Source: Streptosporangium sp. NBC_01495
GTDB lineage: Bacteria; Actinomycetota; Actinomycetes; Streptosporangiales; Streptosporangiaceae
DNA: 64,000 bases
Reading direction: 5' to 3'
NCBI RefSeq assembly: GCF_036250735.1
Contig: NZ_CP109430.1
Location: 2,604,001-2,668,000 of the forward strand
Below the pieces are notes generated by a model. The model was not told the origin of the DNA, did not search any database, and saw nothing but the letters and a program-made list of their open reading frames with translations. Numbering within the stretch: the stretch's first letter is position 1; each line of letters begins with the position of its first letter. The position numbers and the translations under genes were made by a program. Below are positions 40,773-45,644 of the stretch, piece after piece.

Positions 40773-41534
40773 TCAGGCGGTGGCCAGAGCCTCCCACCGG
40801 TGCGCGGCCCGCTCGTAGCGTTCGAGCAGCACCGCCGCGACCTCGGGGGCGGCGCCCAGCACGTCGGCGACGGCGTCGGCGCCCGCGGCCAGGGTCTCGC
40901 GGCGGATCCTGTCGGCGAAGTGGCCGGGGGCGAGCAGGTAGGGGGCGACCACGATCCGGGAGGCTCCCGAGCGCCGCAGGCGCAGCACGGCCTCCTCGGG
41001 GGTGGGGCCGGCGGCCGAGGCGTAGGCGGCGGTCACCGACCGCCAGCCGCGCAGCCTCGCCCAGTCCCCGGCGATCCCGGCGACCGTCGCGTTGGCCCGC
41101 GGGTCGCTGGAACCGGCCGAGACCAGCACCACGGCGGTGCCGGGCTCGCCGGGCCGCACGCCCGCCTCGGCCAGGCGCCGCTCCAGCGCGGTGACCAGCA
41201 GCGGGTGCGGGCCCAGCGTGGCGCCCGCGTGCACGCGCAGCAGGGGCCTGCGGGCCGTCGCCTCGGCCAGCGCGCCGGGGATGTCGACCCGGCTGTGGTA
41301 GGCCTCGGTGAGCAGCAGCGGCAGCACCGCCGCCTCGGCCAGCCCCGACAGCGCCATGGGAAGCGTCGGGGAGGCGTGGTCGAGATAGGCGGTGCGTACG
41401 AGGAGCTCGGGCCGCGCGTCGCGTACCAGGTCGAGCAGGTCCTCCACCGTCGCGGCGGCGCGCGGGTCACGGGACCCGTGCGCCACGGCGACCAGCGGTG
41501 TCCCGGGGGCGGTACCGGGGGAACGCCACGTCAT
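40773..41534 (-). CDS. Sirohydrochlorin ferrochelatase-like (CbiX/SirB)
   Basis: A two-domain chelatase of 253 residues. The N-terminal half holds VAVAHGSRDPRAAATVEDLL with the metal-contacting His, and the second half repeats the fold (VVLVSAGSSDPRANATVAGI, VVAPYLLAPGHFADRIRRET). It would insert iron into sirohydrochlorin to make siroheme, the cofactor of the sulfite reductase coded four genes upstream. The ATG overlaps the cysH stop codon by 4 bp. This gene ends the sulfur operon. Insertion of cobalt (CbiX activity) is an alternative that the operon argues against. Confidence 0.88.
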   Translation of the reverse strand: MTWRSPGTAPGTPLVAVAHGSRDPRAAATVEDLLDLVRDARPELLVRTAYLDHASPTLPMALSGLAEAAVLPLLLTEAYHSRVDIPGALAEATARRPLLRVHAGATLGPHPLLVTALERRLAEAGVRPGEPGTAVVLVSAGSSDPRANATVAGIAGDWARLRGWRSVTAAYASAAGPTPEEAVLRLRRSGASRIVVAPYLLAPGHFADRIRRETLAAGADAVADVLGAAPEVAAVLLERYERAAHRWEALATA

Positions 41535-42259
41535 ATATGGAGCCCGCACTCGGTCTTGCCCATGCCCGCCCAGCGACCGCTGCGCGGGTCCTCTCCCGGG
41601 GCGACCTGGCGGGTGCAGGGGGCGCAGCCGATCGAGGGGTAGTTGTCGTAGTGCAGCGGGTTGATCAGCACCCCGTTGTCGGCCATGTAGTTGTCGACGT
41701 CCTCCTGCGTCCACCGGGCGATCGGGTTGATCTTGACCATCTGGCGCTTGGCGTCCCATTCGACGACCTTGACGCCGGCGCGGGTGGCGGCCTCGTCGCG
41801 GCGGATGCCGGAGACCCAGGCGAGGTACGGCTCGAGGGCGCGGTTGAGCGGCTCGACCTTGCGCAGGTAGCAGCACAGGTCGGGGTTGCGGCCGAACAGG
41901 CGCGGGCCGAGGTCGCGCTCCTGCTCGGCCACCGTGCGGGACGGCTTCACGTCGATCACGTTCACGTCGTAGACCTGCTGGACGGCGTCACGGGTGCCGA
42001 TCGTCTCGGCGAAGTGGTATCCGGTGTCGATGAAGAGCACGTCCACGCCGGGCTTGACCCTGCTGACCAGGTCGATCAGCAGGGCGTCGCTCATGGAGGC
42101 GGTCAGGCAGAGCCGGTCGCCGAAGGTCGCCGCCGCCCAGCGGATGATCTCAAGGGCCGAGGCGTCCTCAAGGAACCGCGCGGCCGACTCGACGATCTCC
42201 TGCAGGTCGAGCGTCCCCCGCTGCTGACGTAATCCGACTTCGATGTCCACCAGTGTCAT
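41531..42259 (-). CDS. cysH: Adenylyl-sulfate (APS) reductase, [4Fe-4S] CysH type
   Basis: It reduces APS to sulfite with thioredoxin-type electrons. The PP-loop region is LCLTASMSDALLIDLVSRV, followed by LFIDTGYHFAETIGTRDAV. The Cys pairs CCYLRKVEPLNRAL and GCAPCTRQVAPGED bind an iron-sulfur cluster and indicate APS rather than PAPS as the substrate. The redox Cys is in the C-terminal GKTECGLHI. The ATG overlaps the stop of the 55-codon ORF upstream (ATGA). A TTG five codons earlier is possible. It lies in the middle of the sir operon. Confidence 0.94.
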   Translation of the reverse strand: MTLVDIEVGLRQQRGTLDLQEIVESAARFLEDASALEIIRWAAATFGDRLCLTASMSDALLIDLVSRVKPGVDVLFIDTGYHFAETIGTRDAVQQVYDVNVIDVKPSRTVAEQERDLGPRLFGRNPDLCCYLRKVEPLNRALEPYLAWVSGIRRDEAATRAGVKVVEWDAKRQMVKINPIARWTQEDVDNYMADNGVLINPLHYDNYPSIGCAPCTRQVAPGEDPRSGRWAGMGKTECGLHI

Positions 42260-42423
42260 CGCTCGTTCACCCAATCCTGATTCGCCGCGCGGGCAGGTCG
42301 TGCCTCGCGGACATCTGCGCTCGTCGTCGTGCCGGAATTCACCGTGCGGGCCGTTCGGGCCGCGGTGACCTCGCCGGTCGCCGCGGCCGTTTCGTTCGCC
42401 GCGTCGGATTCGCCGCGCGTCAC
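42256..42423 (-). CDS. 55-residue Ala/Thr-rich linker ORF in the cys operon
   Basis: This short frame begins at a GTG that overlaps the stop of the zinc-ribbon gene (GTGA) and ends overlapping the cysH start (ATGA), so both junctions have the 4-bp coupling overlap seen elsewhere in the operon. The product (starting MTRGESDAANETAAATGEV, ending NQDWVNER) is rich in Ala, Thr and Arg and has no recognisable domain. It may exist mainly to pass ribosomes from one gene to the next. Without the exact overlaps I would not call it. Confidence 0.5.
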   Translation of the reverse strand: MTRGESDAANETAAATGEVTAARTARTVNSGTTTSADVREARPARAANQDWVNER

Positions 42424-42563
42424 GAGCGCACCCCGATTCCGAGAAACTTCAGCTTGAAGGCGCGCACGCACGACCGGCAGTACCAGCCGCCGTCGCCCTC
42501 GTAGGGCTCCAGGTCTTCCTCGCCGCAGTACGGGCAGTGGAAGGGAACGGCTCGCTCGCTCAT
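42420..42563 (-). CDS. 47-residue zinc-ribbon-like protein in the sulfur operon
   Basis: A small protein with two CxxC knuckles: FHCPYCGEEDLEPYEGDGGW and YCRSCVRAFKLKFLGIG. The four cysteines at 17-20 residue spacing can hold one zinc ion, or perhaps an iron-sulfur centre. A very strong ribosome binding site (GAGGAGGGG) precedes the ATG. Proteins of this sort are found between the sulfite reductase and cysH in many actinobacteria. Its job is unknown, but co-location suggests help with electron transfer or assembly for Sir or CysH (inference). Confidence 0.8.
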   Translation of the reverse strand: MSERAVPFHCPYCGEEDLEPYEGDGGWYCRSCVRAFKLKFLGIGVRS

Positions 42564-42621: not shown

Positions 42622-44304
42622 TCACTTCAGGTCCGCGTCGTCGGCGCGCTGCACCCAGTCGGAGAAGGTCTCGTCCTCGTTCTTCAGCTTCTCGAAGTTG
42701 CGGAGCACGCGCTCCACGTAGTCGGGAAGCTCCTCGGAGGTGGCCTTCAGGCCGCGGACCTTGCGGCCGAAGCCGGGGTTGACGCCCAGCGAGCCGCCCA
42801 GGTGGATCTGGAAGCCCTCGACCTGCTCGCCCTTGTCGTTGACGACGAGCTGGCCCTTGAGGCCGATGTCGGCGACCTGGATGCGGGCGCAGGAGTTGGG
42901 GCAGCCGTTGACGTTGATGGTCAGCGGGCTCTTGAAGTCGGGCAGCCGCTGCTCCAGCTCGTCGATCAGGTTGGCCGCGGTGACCTTGGTCTCGACGATG
43001 GCCAGCTTGCAGAACTCGATCCCGGTGCACGCCATGGTCTGGCGGCGGAAGGTGGAGGGCTTGACCCGCAGGTCGGCCGCCTCCAGCTCGGCGACGAGGC
43101 TGTCGACCCTGTCGGGCGCCACGTCGAGGATGACCATCTTCTGCTCGACCGTGGTGTGCACCCGGTCGGAGCCGTGCCGCTCGGCGATGTCGGCGATCAG
43201 GTGCAGCTTGTCGCCGTCGAGGCGGCCGACCTTCGGGGCGAAGCCGACGTAGAAGTTGCCGTCCTTCTGCGGGAAGACGCCCACGTGGTCCCTGCGGCCG
43301 CCGCGCGGCTGCTCGGGCGCGGGGCCGTCGGGCAGGGTGTAGCCCAGGTATTCCTTCTCCAGGACGTCGCGGAACTTCTCGGGACCCCAGTCGTTGATCA
43401 GGAACTTGATCCTGGCCCGGTGGCGCAGGCGACGGTAGCCGTAGTCGCGGAAGACGCCGATCACGCCGCCGTAGGCGGGGGCGACCTGGTCGGGGGTGAG
43501 GAAGACGCCCAGCCGCTTGCCCAGCATCGGGTTGGTGGACAGGCCGCCGCCCACCCACAGGTCGAAGCCGCGCTCGCCGTTCTCGTTCACGACGCCCACG
43601 AACGCCACGTCGTTGATCTCGTGCACGGTGCAGTGCGCCGAGCACCCGCTCACCGCGGACTTGAACTTGCGCGGCAGGTTGGAGAAGGCCGGGTCGCCGA
43701 TGTAGGTGTCGTAGATCTCCTGGATCTGCGCGGAGCCGTCGAGGACCTCGTCGGTGTCGATCCCGGCCAGCGGGCAGCCCAGGATGACGCGCGGGGTGTC
43801 GCCACAGGCCTCGGTGGTGGACAGGCCCACCGACTCCAGGCGCTCCCAGATGTCGGGAACGGCCTCGATCTCGATCCAGTGCAGCTGGATGTTCTGCCGG
43901 TCGGTGACGTCGGCGGTGCCCCGGCCGTAGAGGTTGGAGATGTCGGCGATGACGCGCAGCTGGGCCAGGTTGAGCCGGCCGCCGTCGATCCTGACGCGGA
44001 GCATGAAGTAGCGGTCGTCGAGCTCCTCCGGCTCCAGGATCGCGGTCTTGCCGCCGTCGATCCCGGGCTTGCGCTGGGTGTAGAGCCCGAACCAGCGCAT
44101 CCGGCCGCGCAGGTCGGCGGGGTCGATGGAGTCGAAGCCGCGCTTGGAGTAGACGTCGATGATCCGCTGACGGACGTTGAGCCCGTCGTCGTTCTTCTTG
44201 TTCTCCTCGTTCTTGTTCAGTGGCTCACGGTAACCGAGAGCCCACTGACCTTCGCCGCGCGGGCGCTTGTGATGGCGGTTCGCCGACCGGGCAGGGGTCG
44301 TCAT
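42622..44304 (-). CDS. sir: Ferredoxin-dependent sulfite reductase (siroheme, 4Fe-4S)
   Basis: The six-electron reduction of sulfite to sulfide is the likely reaction. This 560-residue nitrite/sulfite reductase family protein has two ferrodoxin-like half domains (GRLNLAQLRVIADISNLYGR, ADVTDRQNIQLHWIEI) and the cluster/siroheme ligands TGIEFCKLAIVETK and NVNGCPNSCARIQ (C-x5-C and C-x3-C). Nitrite reduction is the alternative; the cysH and chelatase genes downstream support sulfite. AAGGAC lies 8 nt before the ATG but is inside a perfect hairpin, so translation initiation is probably controlled. A leader peptide with a Cys-Cys pair lies 150 bp upstream. Confidence 0.94.
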   Translation of the reverse strand: MTTPARSANRHHKRPRGEGQWALGYREPLNKNEENKKNDDGLNVRQRIIDVYSKRGFDSIDPADLRGRMRWFGLYTQRKPGIDGGKTAILEPEELDDRYFMLRVRIDGGRLNLAQLRVIADISNLYGRGTADVTDRQNIQLHWIEIEAVPDIWERLESVGLSTTEACGDTPRVILGCPLAGIDTDEVLDGSAQIQEIYDTYIGDPAFSNLPRKFKSAVSGCSAHCTVHEINDVAFVGVVNENGERGFDLWVGGGLSTNPMLGKRLGVFLTPDQVAPAYGGVIGVFRDYGYRRLRHRARIKFLINDWGPEKFRDVLEKEYLGYTLPDGPAPEQPRGGRRDHVGVFPQKDGNFYVGFAPKVGRLDGDKLHLIADIAERHGSDRVHTTVEQKMVILDVAPDRVDSLVAELEAADLRVKPSTFRRQTMACTGIEFCKLAIVETKVTAANLIDELEQRLPDFKSPLTINVNGCPNSCARIQVADIGLKGQLVVNDKGEQVEGFQIHLGGSLGVNPGFGRKVRGLKATSEELPDYVERVLRNFEKLKNEDETFSDWVQRADDADLK

Positions 44305-44351
44305 GTGCGCGTCCTTATTGTGGCTCGATGGAATGATTTCCGGACGCGCAC
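44305..44351 (-). promoter_or_regulatory. Hairpin sequestering the sir ribosome binding site
   Basis: On the transcript, GTGCGCGTCC (44351-44342) can pair perfectly with GGACGCGCAC (44314-44305), which directly abuts the sir ATG and contains the AGGAC part of its ribosome binding site. The loop is 27 nt. A stable 10-bp stem here should block initiation. It lies 100 nt past the stop of the Cys leader peptide. Confidence 0.75.
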
Positions 44352-44452
44352 AGGGGGCACCTCCCGCCTCATCGTCGAGTGCGGGGGTCGATTACTCAGA
44401 AGAGGACGCCTGTTACGCGGCCGAGCTGGGTGAAATCAGCAGGGGGCGACGG

Positions 44453-44536
44453 TTAACGGACGTCACAACAGATGGCACTGCGGACACGCAGAAGGTCGAC
44501 GTGGCGTCGCACGACGAGCAATGGGTCCGCTGGCAT
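44453..44536 (-). CDS. Leaderless Cys-Cys leader peptide of the sulfur operon
   Basis: The 27-codon ORF starts at an ATG 7 nt after a -10 box, so the message is probably leaderless. Its core RRHVDLLRVRSAICC is the conserved motif of actinobacterial leader peptides upstream of sulfur-assimilation genes, and tandem TGT TGT codons fall at residues 23-24, three residues before the end (DVR). Polycysteine leaderless ORFs of this sort act as cysteine-responsive attenuators in mycobacteria. When charged Cys-tRNA is scarce, ribosomes pause there and the fold of the downstream leader changes. A GTG at 44512 is the other possible start. Confidence 0.85.
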   Translation of the reverse strand: MPADPLLVVRRHVDLLRVRSAICCDVR

Positions 44537-44543
44537 GTCTACG

Positions 44544-44572
44544 ACGATACCTCGGGCTTCGTGGATGTCCAA
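44544..44572 (-). promoter_or_regulatory. Promoter of the sulfur operon
   Basis: TTGGAC (44572-44567), a 17-bp spacer and TATCGT (44549-44544) fit the housekeeping consensus. The A of the leader-peptide ATG at 44536 is at the expected start distance of 8 nt, which makes the message leaderless. Confidence 0.75.
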
Positions 44573-44654
44573 TGCCGGGTCCACCATCTGGACGCGGACG
44601 TGGTATCCGGGCCCGCGCCGGGACGCCGGAGAGGCCGGGGCGGCGGGATTTCGG

Positions 44655-44780
44655 TCAGCCCTGGCGGGGCCAGTCCAGTGCCGACTCCCGGGGCTCGGGG
44701 GCGGGCTGATGCTGGCAGTCGCACCACGAGCCTCCCCGGCACTTCTCGTGCCGCCGCTCCTTGCACTCCTCGCAAATCAT
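44655..44780 (-). CDS. 41-residue Cys-rich protein
   Basis: The product reads MICEECKERRHEKCRGGSWC, then DCQHQPAPEPRES and a short tail. Five cysteines and two histidines in the first 24 residues suggest one structural zinc site. I recall very similar short proteins across actinobacteria, none with a known function. Its stop is about 80 bp before the -35 box of the sulfur-operon promoter, on the same strand, so it might add read-through to that operon. The ribosome binding site is weak. Confidence 0.7.
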   Translation of the reverse strand: MICEECKERRHEKCRGGSWCDCQHQPAPEPRESALDWPRQG

Positions 44781-44852
44781 GGGTCCATTCTGCGCTGTTC
44801 CTTCTAGAATATTACTCGGTTACCCTTGTCTGGGCTGCGACAGGGAGGCGCC

Positions 44853-45644
44853 ATGAGCCTGATGGACGAGCTGCTGGCGGACCTGCGCGCCGAGACGGCC
44901 GAGTTCGACGCCATGATCGGAGGGCTCGGCCCGGACGAGTGGGAACTGTCCACCCCGGCCGAGGGCTGGGCGGTACGGGACCAGGTTGGCCACCTCGCCT
45001 GGTTCGACGACGCCGCCACCGTCTCCGCCGCCGACCCCGGGGCGTTCCGCGCCGCCCTGCCCGCGTTCCTCGCCCGCGGGGACTCCGCCGTGGACGAGCT
45101 CGCCGCCGCCTCGCGGGGGCTGACCGCCGCCCAGCTCCACGAGTGGTTCCGCGAGGCGAGGACCCGCGCCCTGGAGGCCTTCGCCCGGCTGGACGCCGGT
45201 GCCAGGCTGCCCTGGTACGGGCCGGAGATGTCGGCCGCGTCCTTCGTCACCGCGCGCCTGATGGAGACCTGGGCCCACGGGCAGGACGTGGCGGACGCGC
45301 TCGGCGTCGCGCGCGTGCCGACCGCCAGGCTCAGGCACGTGGCGACGCTCGGGGTGCGCGCCATGCCCTACGGCTTCGCGGTGCGCGGCCTGGAGCCGCC
45401 GTCGCGCCCGGTGCGGGTGGAGCTGACCATGCCCGGCGGGTCGCCGTGGGAGGCCGGACCCCCGGACGCCGCCGACGTGGTCCGCGGCACCATGCTCGAC
45501 TTCTGTCTCCTGGTGGTCCGGCGCCGCCACCTCGCCGACACGTCCCTGCTGGTGCGCGGCGAGACCGCCCGGACGTGGACCGCGATCGCCCAGGCCTTCG
45601 CCGGACCGCCGGGCAGGGAACGGGCTCCGCTCGGGCAGGGGTAG
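44853..45644 (+). CDS. TIGR03084/maleylpyruvate-isomerase-like DinB-fold protein
   Basis: A 263-residue protein with the DinB/mycothiol-dependent-isomerase fold at the N-terminus (LLADLRAETAEFDAMIGGL, TPAEGWAVRDQVGHLAWFDD) and METWAHGQDVADALGV, which carries a metal-binding His and matches the TIGR03084 family. The second half (MPYGFAVRGLEPPSRPVRVE) is its wHTH/beta tail domain. Relatives use mycothiol and a divalent metal. The substrate here is unknown. GGGAGG lies 5 nt before this ATG; a GTG nine codons upstream is less well placed. It is divergent from the small Cys-rich gene. Confidence 0.85.
   Translation: MSLMDELLADLRAETAEFDAMIGGLGPDEWELSTPAEGWAVRDQVGHLAWFDDAATVSAADPGAFRAALPAFLARGDSAVDELAAASRGLTAAQLHEWFREARTRALEAFARLDAGARLPWYGPEMSAASFVTARLMETWAHGQDVADALGVARVPTARLRHVATLGVRAMPYGFAVRGLEPPSRPVRVELTMPGGSPWEAGPPDAADVVRGTMLDFCLLVVRRRHLADTSLLVRGETARTWTAIAQAFAGPPGRERAPLGQG

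Follow-up and report, generated by a model that had tools for sequence, protein, structure and literature searches.

The trp, his and leu attenuators of enterobacteria consist of four RNA segments that form the mutually exclusive pairings 1:2, 2:3 and 3:4 and are read out through ribosome stalling. The leu attenuator uses rare control codons. Outside the control codons, the peptides encoded by these leaders are to our knowledge not conserved. In mycobacteria, Canestrari et al. (2020; doi 10.1111/mmi.14498) reportedly described polycysteine leaderless short ORFs, and we know of no tests of cysteine attenuation by leaderless ORFs other than those in mycobacteria, with polycysteine runs.

The polycysteine leaders are cited in three articles (PMC9094748, PMC9031893 and PMC13236596). 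According to the citing passages, contiguous Cys codons could regulate downstream translation via the speed of elongation (PMC9031893), and the cysteine genes of M. smegmatis are under translation attenuation (PMC13236596). A 2005 paper described candidate Cys leaders of Mycobacterium, Propionibacterium and Bifidobacterium and, in its passage on them, called the mode of regulation unknown (PMC1262725). Shell et al. (2015) observed uORFs rich in Cys that were occupied by ribosomes, and suggested attenuation (PMC4633059). The portion of the Streptomyces lividans reannotation that deals with leader peptides gives eight of them, none as cysteine-dependent (PMC8079986). Finally, uORFC-8-2 is presented, in the sections that concern it, as the cysS attenuator of Rhodobacterales (PMC8632094).

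The sir locus and its promoter

We analysed a stretch of 64,000 nt (hereafter the window) of the 11.1-Mb genome of Streptosporangium sp. NBC_01495, in which a first-pass annotation had proposed a complete cysteine-responsive attenuator in front of a sulfite reductase operon. The locus comprises the following features.

44544..44572, minus strand: promoter TTGGAC-N17-TATCGT (from the sequence, a promoter scan and the -35 spacing across loci)
44453..44536, minus strand: predicted leaderless leader ORF of 27 codons, MPADPLLVVRRHVDLLRVRSAICCDVR followed by a stop codon (from NF042934, conservation at sir loci and amino-acid conservation)
42622..44304, minus strand: sir, sulfite/nitrite reductase family protein of 560 residues (NIR_SIR and NIR_SIR_ferr)
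42420..42563, minus strand: small ORF of 47 residues with two CxxC pairs (from the ORF list)
41531..42259, minus strand: cysH-like PAPS/APS reductase (PAPS_reduct, 153 bits)
40773..41450, minus strand: CbiX/SirB-like sirohydrochlorin chelatase (CbiX, 110 bits)

The sir protein is 94% identical in its best segment to that of Streptosporangium amethystogenes. None of the listed NCBIfam equivalogs is matched above its cut-off, and hence the name sir rests on the family and on the neighbouring genes. Pfam searches with the 47-residue ORF gave only weak zinc-ribbon-like matches, all under their cut-offs. The gene set that follows the leader fits a putative assimilatory sulfite reductase operon with sirohaem supply.

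The promoter and the 27-codon ORF with its tandem TGT TGT codons (44470-44465) are located where the first-pass annotation had put them. On the minus strand, TTGGAC (44572-44567) is followed by 17 nt, TATCGT (44549-44544), 7 nt and the ATG of the leader ORF at 44536. The promoter scan of positions 44250-44650 returned a single site, given as TGGACA, 16 nt and TATCGT, with a mean of 0.0 sites in 50 shuffles. TGGAC is present 34-37 nt upstream of the leader start codon in 79 of the 81 sir loci compared. A leaderless start needs such a spacing, and its recurrence thus provides comparative support for one; transcription would be expected to begin with the first base of the leader ORF, the A at 44536. 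A search of positions 44000-44900 against Rfam gave no match up to an E-value of 5.

Upstream of the leader promoter, positions 44655-44780 (minus strand) harbour a Cys-rich ORF of 41 residues, MICEECKERRHEKCRGGSWCDCQHQ..., with no match in a Pfam search. Its CxC-QH motif is present in the upstream flanks of 55 of the 80 related loci.

A conserved leader peptide family

The leader peptide matches the NCBIfam family NF042934 ('putative leader peptide', cis_reg_atten) with a score of 30.8 bits, above the curated cut-off of 27. Its scores against the Cys-rich families Ms4527A and Ms5788A, 20.6 and 16.4, are below their cut-off of 45. A leader with the motif R[RL]HVD[LFY]xRV was found upstream of sir in 80/80 related loci, these being the best 80 of at least 550 relatives and thus a sample skewed to close kin. 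They were drawn from Streptosporangiaceae, Actinomadura/Actinoallomurus and Nocardiopsis-type genera.

Of the 246 genomes of the class that were searched, 171 have an NF042934-type leader at E-values up to 0.001 (151 of them above the cut-off). None of 14 control genomes searched for the family had a match, and a phylum-wide draw at E-values up to 0.0001 gave matches in 12 of 198 genomes. Members of the family also precede other kinds of genes than sir. The genome of Streptosporangium sp. NBC_01495 itself has a further leader before a sodium:dicarboxylate symporter-family gene (locus L001) and another, MNSTTELLTKRRAVDFCRVTTALCRIS, before a DUF4395 and rhodanese gene pair (locus L003, 1-1600, minus strand). 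The latter locus resembles the mycobacterial cysA2-type locus.

Over codons -13 to 0 of the leaders, the first, second and third codon positions have diversities of 0.06, 0.04 and 0.34; low values at the first two positions with a high value at the third indicate that the amino acids are kept and the nucleotides are not. Eight residues (R, H, V, D, R, V, A and C) do not vary at their places in any of the 81 leaders, as counted in leaders retrieved with search patterns that demanded most of those residues, with no locus lacking a match. Judged by these sequence comparisons, the leader is a genuine and old part of the gene. At codon -3, where a Ser precedes Ala-Ile-Cys, 78 of the 81 leaders have AGC or AGT and two have TCT, which may be a further codon preference.

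An invariant TGT codon

One Cys codon of the leader is shared by all members of the set.

44468..44470, minus strand: putative universal sensing Cys codon, TGT (in 81/81 sir leaders and 56/56 further leaders)

The second TGT of the window (44467-44465) is not conserved. The first-pass annotation had singled out the tandem; across the set, this does not hold as a conserved feature, with a Cys directly after the universal one in 33 of the 81 leaders and absent there in 48. Since 40/81 leaders have a single Cys, we do not class the sir leaders as 'polycysteine', even though that of the window has two Cys residues.

The choice of codon for the universal Cys departs from general usage: the sir genes of the same 80 loci (the best 80 of at least 550 relatives) have 34 TGT versus 617 TGC codons, i.e. 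5% TGT. We aligned 56 further leaders of the family by profile position, namely the three other matches above the cut-off in the same genome and 53 newly returned loci, some near-identical and some perhaps sir leaders, from among many more matches listed. The Cys at the end of the motif is encoded by TGT in 56/56 of them, versus 5/34, 7/25 and 1/7 for Cys residues at profile positions 12, 17 and 18. As the leaders are akin to one another, these counts are not independent trials. A search with a protein profile is blind to the choice among synonymous codons.

ARAGORN, run on 60 of the 63 tRNA matches of the genome, identified tRNA-Cys with the anticodon GCA only, so that UGU must be read by wobble. 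Wobble reading of UGU would mean slower decoding. On the basis of this single anticodon, the all-UGU choice probably slows decoding. We interpret the invariant UGU as having been selected because it makes a slow and sensitive control codon, and the peptide may help the ribosome to stop. We also considered that TGT is kept to pair with an ACAG of the downstream RNA (segment 2, below) and rejected this explanation: segment 2 of Nonomuraea has no ACAG, and TGT is still there. Three tRNA-Cys(GCA) genes of the genome (L125, L127 and L128) are each clustered with tRNA-Gly and tRNA-Val genes.

Proposed alternative pairings of the leader RNA

The comparison of 78 leaders suggests a relay of four RNA segments, with pairings 1:2, 2:3 around a central hairpin, and 3:4. 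In the window they would correspond to the following positions.

44444..44464, minus strand: segment 1, starting right after the Cys codon; predicted to pair with segment 2 when free of the ribosome
44405..44424, minus strand: segment 2, GGGCGCGTGACAGGCGTC-like; predicted to pair with segment 1 (OFF) or segment 3 (ON)
44363..44385, minus strand: central hairpin between segments 2 and 3, CCCGC a CTC gacgat GAG GCGGG
44340..44354, minus strand: segment 3, with the GCGCGTCC arm, which holds the left arm of the stem over the ribosome-binding site (RBS); predicted to pair with segment 2 (ON) or the RBS (OFF)
44304..44314, minus strand: segment 4, the sir RBS GGACGCGCAC and the A of the ATG; right arm of the stem

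The sequestering fold (1:2 with 3:4) and the open fold (2:3) are mutually exclusive. By eye and uncounted, many leaders of Streptosporangiaceae and Nocardiopsis have a loop resembling GACGAY in the central hairpin (44376-44371, minus strand, in the window).

Helices were counted in 78 of the 81 leaders; L063, L087 and L091 were left out, as they are in none of the three alignments. We used an alignment-free test that sets the duplex energy of cognate segments against the energy obtained with partner segments of other lineages, with the hairpin arms trimmed (78 sequences, 11 lineages, 2000 permutations). Cognate versus other-lineage energies were -26.8 versus -21.8 for 1:2, -29.5 versus -24.2 for 2:3, -18.2 versus -16.4 for 3:4 and -17.3 versus -12.6 for the central hairpin, and in each case 0/2000 permutations were as good. 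The control pairings 2:4, 1:4 and 1:3 showed no signal in the 78 sequences (847, 699 and 562 of 2000). For Streptosporangiaceae alone, 0 (1:2), 2 (2:3), 1 (hairpin) and 51 (3:4) of 2000 permutations were as good; the supposed control 1:3 also turned positive (0/2000), which makes this subset less clean. The leaders have the conserved, exclusive alternative helices expected of a four-segment attenuator, 3:4 being the weaker one.

Pairs changed on both sides were counted in a MAFFT alignment of 33 of the 50 Streptosporangiaceae sequences, Nonomuraea being left out for its shorter spacer. The central hairpin has 21 such cells versus 6.2 in shuffles (0/500 as good) and 2:3 has 12 versus 6.2 (1/500), with 10 and 9 double changes when the partner in 2:3 is slid by -1 and +3 columns. 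A joint count of 2:3 and the hairpin (33 cells versus 12.4) was discarded because it overstates 2:3, 21 of the 33 cells lying in the hairpin. Splitting the counts weakened the alignment support for 2:3 and not the alignment-free test, and we therefore left the odds of the attenuator proposed below unchanged.

For helix 1:2, 94.6% of the cells are paired in the same 33 sequences, with one double-sided change and hence little covariation. The 1:2 duplex energy is -25.5 kcal/mol versus -17.8 with segment 2 shuffled. The 1:2 duplexes of nine example leaders have energies between -16.0 and -37.5 kcal/mol, and their 3:4 duplexes between -14.1 and -25.9 kcal/mol. The start of 1:2 adjoins the Cys codon in 78/78 leaders, but it also does so in 79% of cases with a shuffled segment 2; we therefore rejected this geometry as strong proof and kept it as weak support. 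When every pair of columns was scanned for covariation against a tree-based null, none was significant (best E-value 0.55), differences between lineages being dominant. RNAalifold predicted a near-structureless RNA for Streptosporangiaceae, the 2:3 helix for the Actinomadura group and a mixed picture for the Nocardiopsis group.

The stem over the sir ribosome-binding site

The first-pass annotation had described a perfect 10-bp stem, 44342-44351 with 44305-44314, next to the sir start codon. It is indeed perfect, and one more pair (44352:44304), formed with the first base of the sir ATG, extends it to 11 Watson-Crick pairs. When the stretch from the leader to the RBS was shuffled with dinucleotides preserved, stems with the RBS of at least 10 bp arose in 5/1000 cases and of at least 7 bp in 126/1000; in the genome of the window, the stem is thus probably not due to chance. 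A perfect stem of at least 10 bp is present in only 4 of the 81 leaders, with a mean length over the 81 of 6.8 versus 5.8 in shuffles.

The proposal had named covariation of the stem among its checks, and here the outcome depends on the range of genera considered. Within Streptosporangiaceae the signal is weak: 71.5% of the cells of 3:4 are paired in the alignment, and the number of pairs changed on both sides is reached by 440/500 shuffles, in line with the 51/2000 of the duplex test. It is clear only across the three groups of genera, in the alignment-free test. Moreover, both arms of the stem are located more than 100 nt downstream of the Cys codons, out of reach of a paused ribosome. The original proposal had only helix 3:4; for the signal to be passed on, 1:2 and 2:3 are required too, and the picture first drawn was thus incomplete.

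Predicted folding with a ribosome on the Cys codon

We predicted RNA ensembles for the 78 leaders with a ribosome masking the Cys codon. Compared with the ribosome-free state, helix 1:2 went down in 50 ensembles (the opposite in 2), 2:3 went up in 39 (the opposite in 3) and 3:4 went down in 30 (the opposite in 7). The predicted accessibility of the RBS did not rise, being up in 4 and down in 16 of the 78 with the ribosome on the Cys codon, and up in 10 and down in 24 when the 5' leader was cut away. In the RNA of the window itself, the 11-bp 3:4 stem is predicted with or without the ribosome, at odds with the earlier notion that ribosome pausing prevents the stem from forming. For the same RNA before the RBS is made, 2:3 has 10.6 predicted pairs in the ribosome-free state and 7.8 with the ribosome, and is thus not favoured. 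In these models, parking the ribosome at the stop codon instead of the Cys codon promotes 2:3 to a similar or greater extent.

Because the RBS stays unopened, we did not accept the ribosome-masked equilibrium folds as proof of a switch. Together with the persisting stem, this means that kinetic, co-transcriptional folding must be assumed, as in classical attenuators.

Proposed mechanism and alternative explanations

Building on the parts of the leader, their conservation and the comparative pairing signals of three exclusive helices, we infer a transcript start, a pause, a dependence on cysteine, an order of folding and a translational level of control that would combine as follows. Transcription would begin at the first base of the leader ORF. 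When cysteinyl-tRNA is plentiful, the ribosome would pass the TGT codon and leave, and segment 1 would pair with segment 2; segment 3 would then be left for the sir RBS in segment 4, and sir would be off. When cysteinyl-tRNA is short, the ribosome would wait at the TGT codon and cover the start of segment 1. Segment 2 would be free and, with segment 4 still to be transcribed, would pair with segment 3 across the central hairpin; the sir site would stay open. The leader would thus probably switch the gene on when cysteine is short. The leader is likely to be a cysteine-responsive, ribosome-mediated attenuator that acts on the initiation of sir translation through a relay of four segments. The core of the earlier proposal, a Cys-sensing leaderless uORF that controls sir, is well supported by the peptide family, its presence at 80/80 loci and the pairing evidence.

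The pause at the Cys codon might instead govern termination, intrinsic or Rho-dependent, rather than the RBS. A Rho-dependent mode was proposed in 2005 for mycobacterial cys leaders, and Seliverstov et al. saw polyY stretches in such leaders, in a passage that calls their own prediction weak (PMC1262725). The scan of 44250-44650 at the sir leader returned 0 terminator-like sites, so that the intrinsic terminator expected of a transcription attenuator was not found there. In addition, cognate partners form a better RBS-covering helix 3:4 than partners from different lineages do, and we regard transcription attenuation as improbable. We give even less credit to the idea that the leader merely couples translation or is a passive small ORF, with a stem arising by chance in GC-rich sequence. 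Shuffled sequences do reach a stem of 10 bp on occasion and equilibrium folding does not open the RBS, but such an ORF would not account for the conserved peptide and codon, nor for three helices with pairing signals across three groups of genera.

A further explanation complements the attenuator and does not replace it. The stretch DPxL..RRHVD[LF]xRVRSAI, once in the exit tunnel, could prime the ribosome for a stop at the invariant UGU; one Cys codon would then suffice, and the RNA relay would do the rest. The retention of the peptide at the amino-acid level, its eight invariant residues and the many leaders with a lone Cys speak for such a nascent-peptide-assisted sensor. So do the occurrence of the same peptide before other kinds of genes and in most genomes of the class, and the restriction of invariant UGU to the end of the motif. 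However, the coding stretch may be kept in part for RNA pairing in the stalled state, and we put this explanation forward as a tentative one.

Comparison with known systems

The finding at the sir leader is real and amounts to more than a stem beside an ORF, but it is less complete than originally claimed. All 81 loci compared have this kind of leader before sir, about half of the leaders with a single Cys codon, and the comparative RNA model specifies the bases to change. Polycysteine attenuation leaves the conservation of the peptide and the invariant TGT unexplained. These two features raise the question of whether codon speed and the nascent chain are read, and not only the number of control codons. 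It is conceivable, if rather doubtful, that the actinobacterial RRHVDLxRVxSAIC leaders are nascent-chain cysteine sensors, in which a tunnel peptide is combined with a wobble-read UGU at a fixed place. If so, a single Cys codon would be a sharp gauge of cysteinyl-tRNA, and one nascent-chain sensor would be common to many unrelated operons of the whole class, each with its own RNA switch.

In the open-access literature, we found no prior report of a relay in front of sir, of leaders with a single Cys or of an invariant UGU, and searches with the family names and for Streptomyces cysteine leaders gave nothing on UGU bias.

In the trp, his and leu attenuators, 3:4 is the terminator, whereas in the sir leader it would hide the RBS. 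The mycobacterial polycysteine ORFs and the sir leaders are alike in having a leaderless uORF with Cys codons before sulfur genes, and in a control of translation through the speed of the ribosome at Cys codons, as proposed in a passage of PMC9031893. They differ in that 40/81 sir leaders have one Cys and no run, that the sir RBS would be hidden by a segment more than 100 nt beyond the ORF via a pairing relay, and that the downstream gene is sir. As for NF042934, the peptide of the window is above its cut-off, and a protein profile is silent on RNA and mechanism. The Rhodobacterales uORFC-8-2 shares tandem Cys codons in a uORF and ribosome-mediated attenuation, but according to the sections that describe it (PMC8632094) it has a terminator with a U run and predominantly UGC codons, whereas UGU is invariant in the sir leaders. 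This kind of attenuator is already known.
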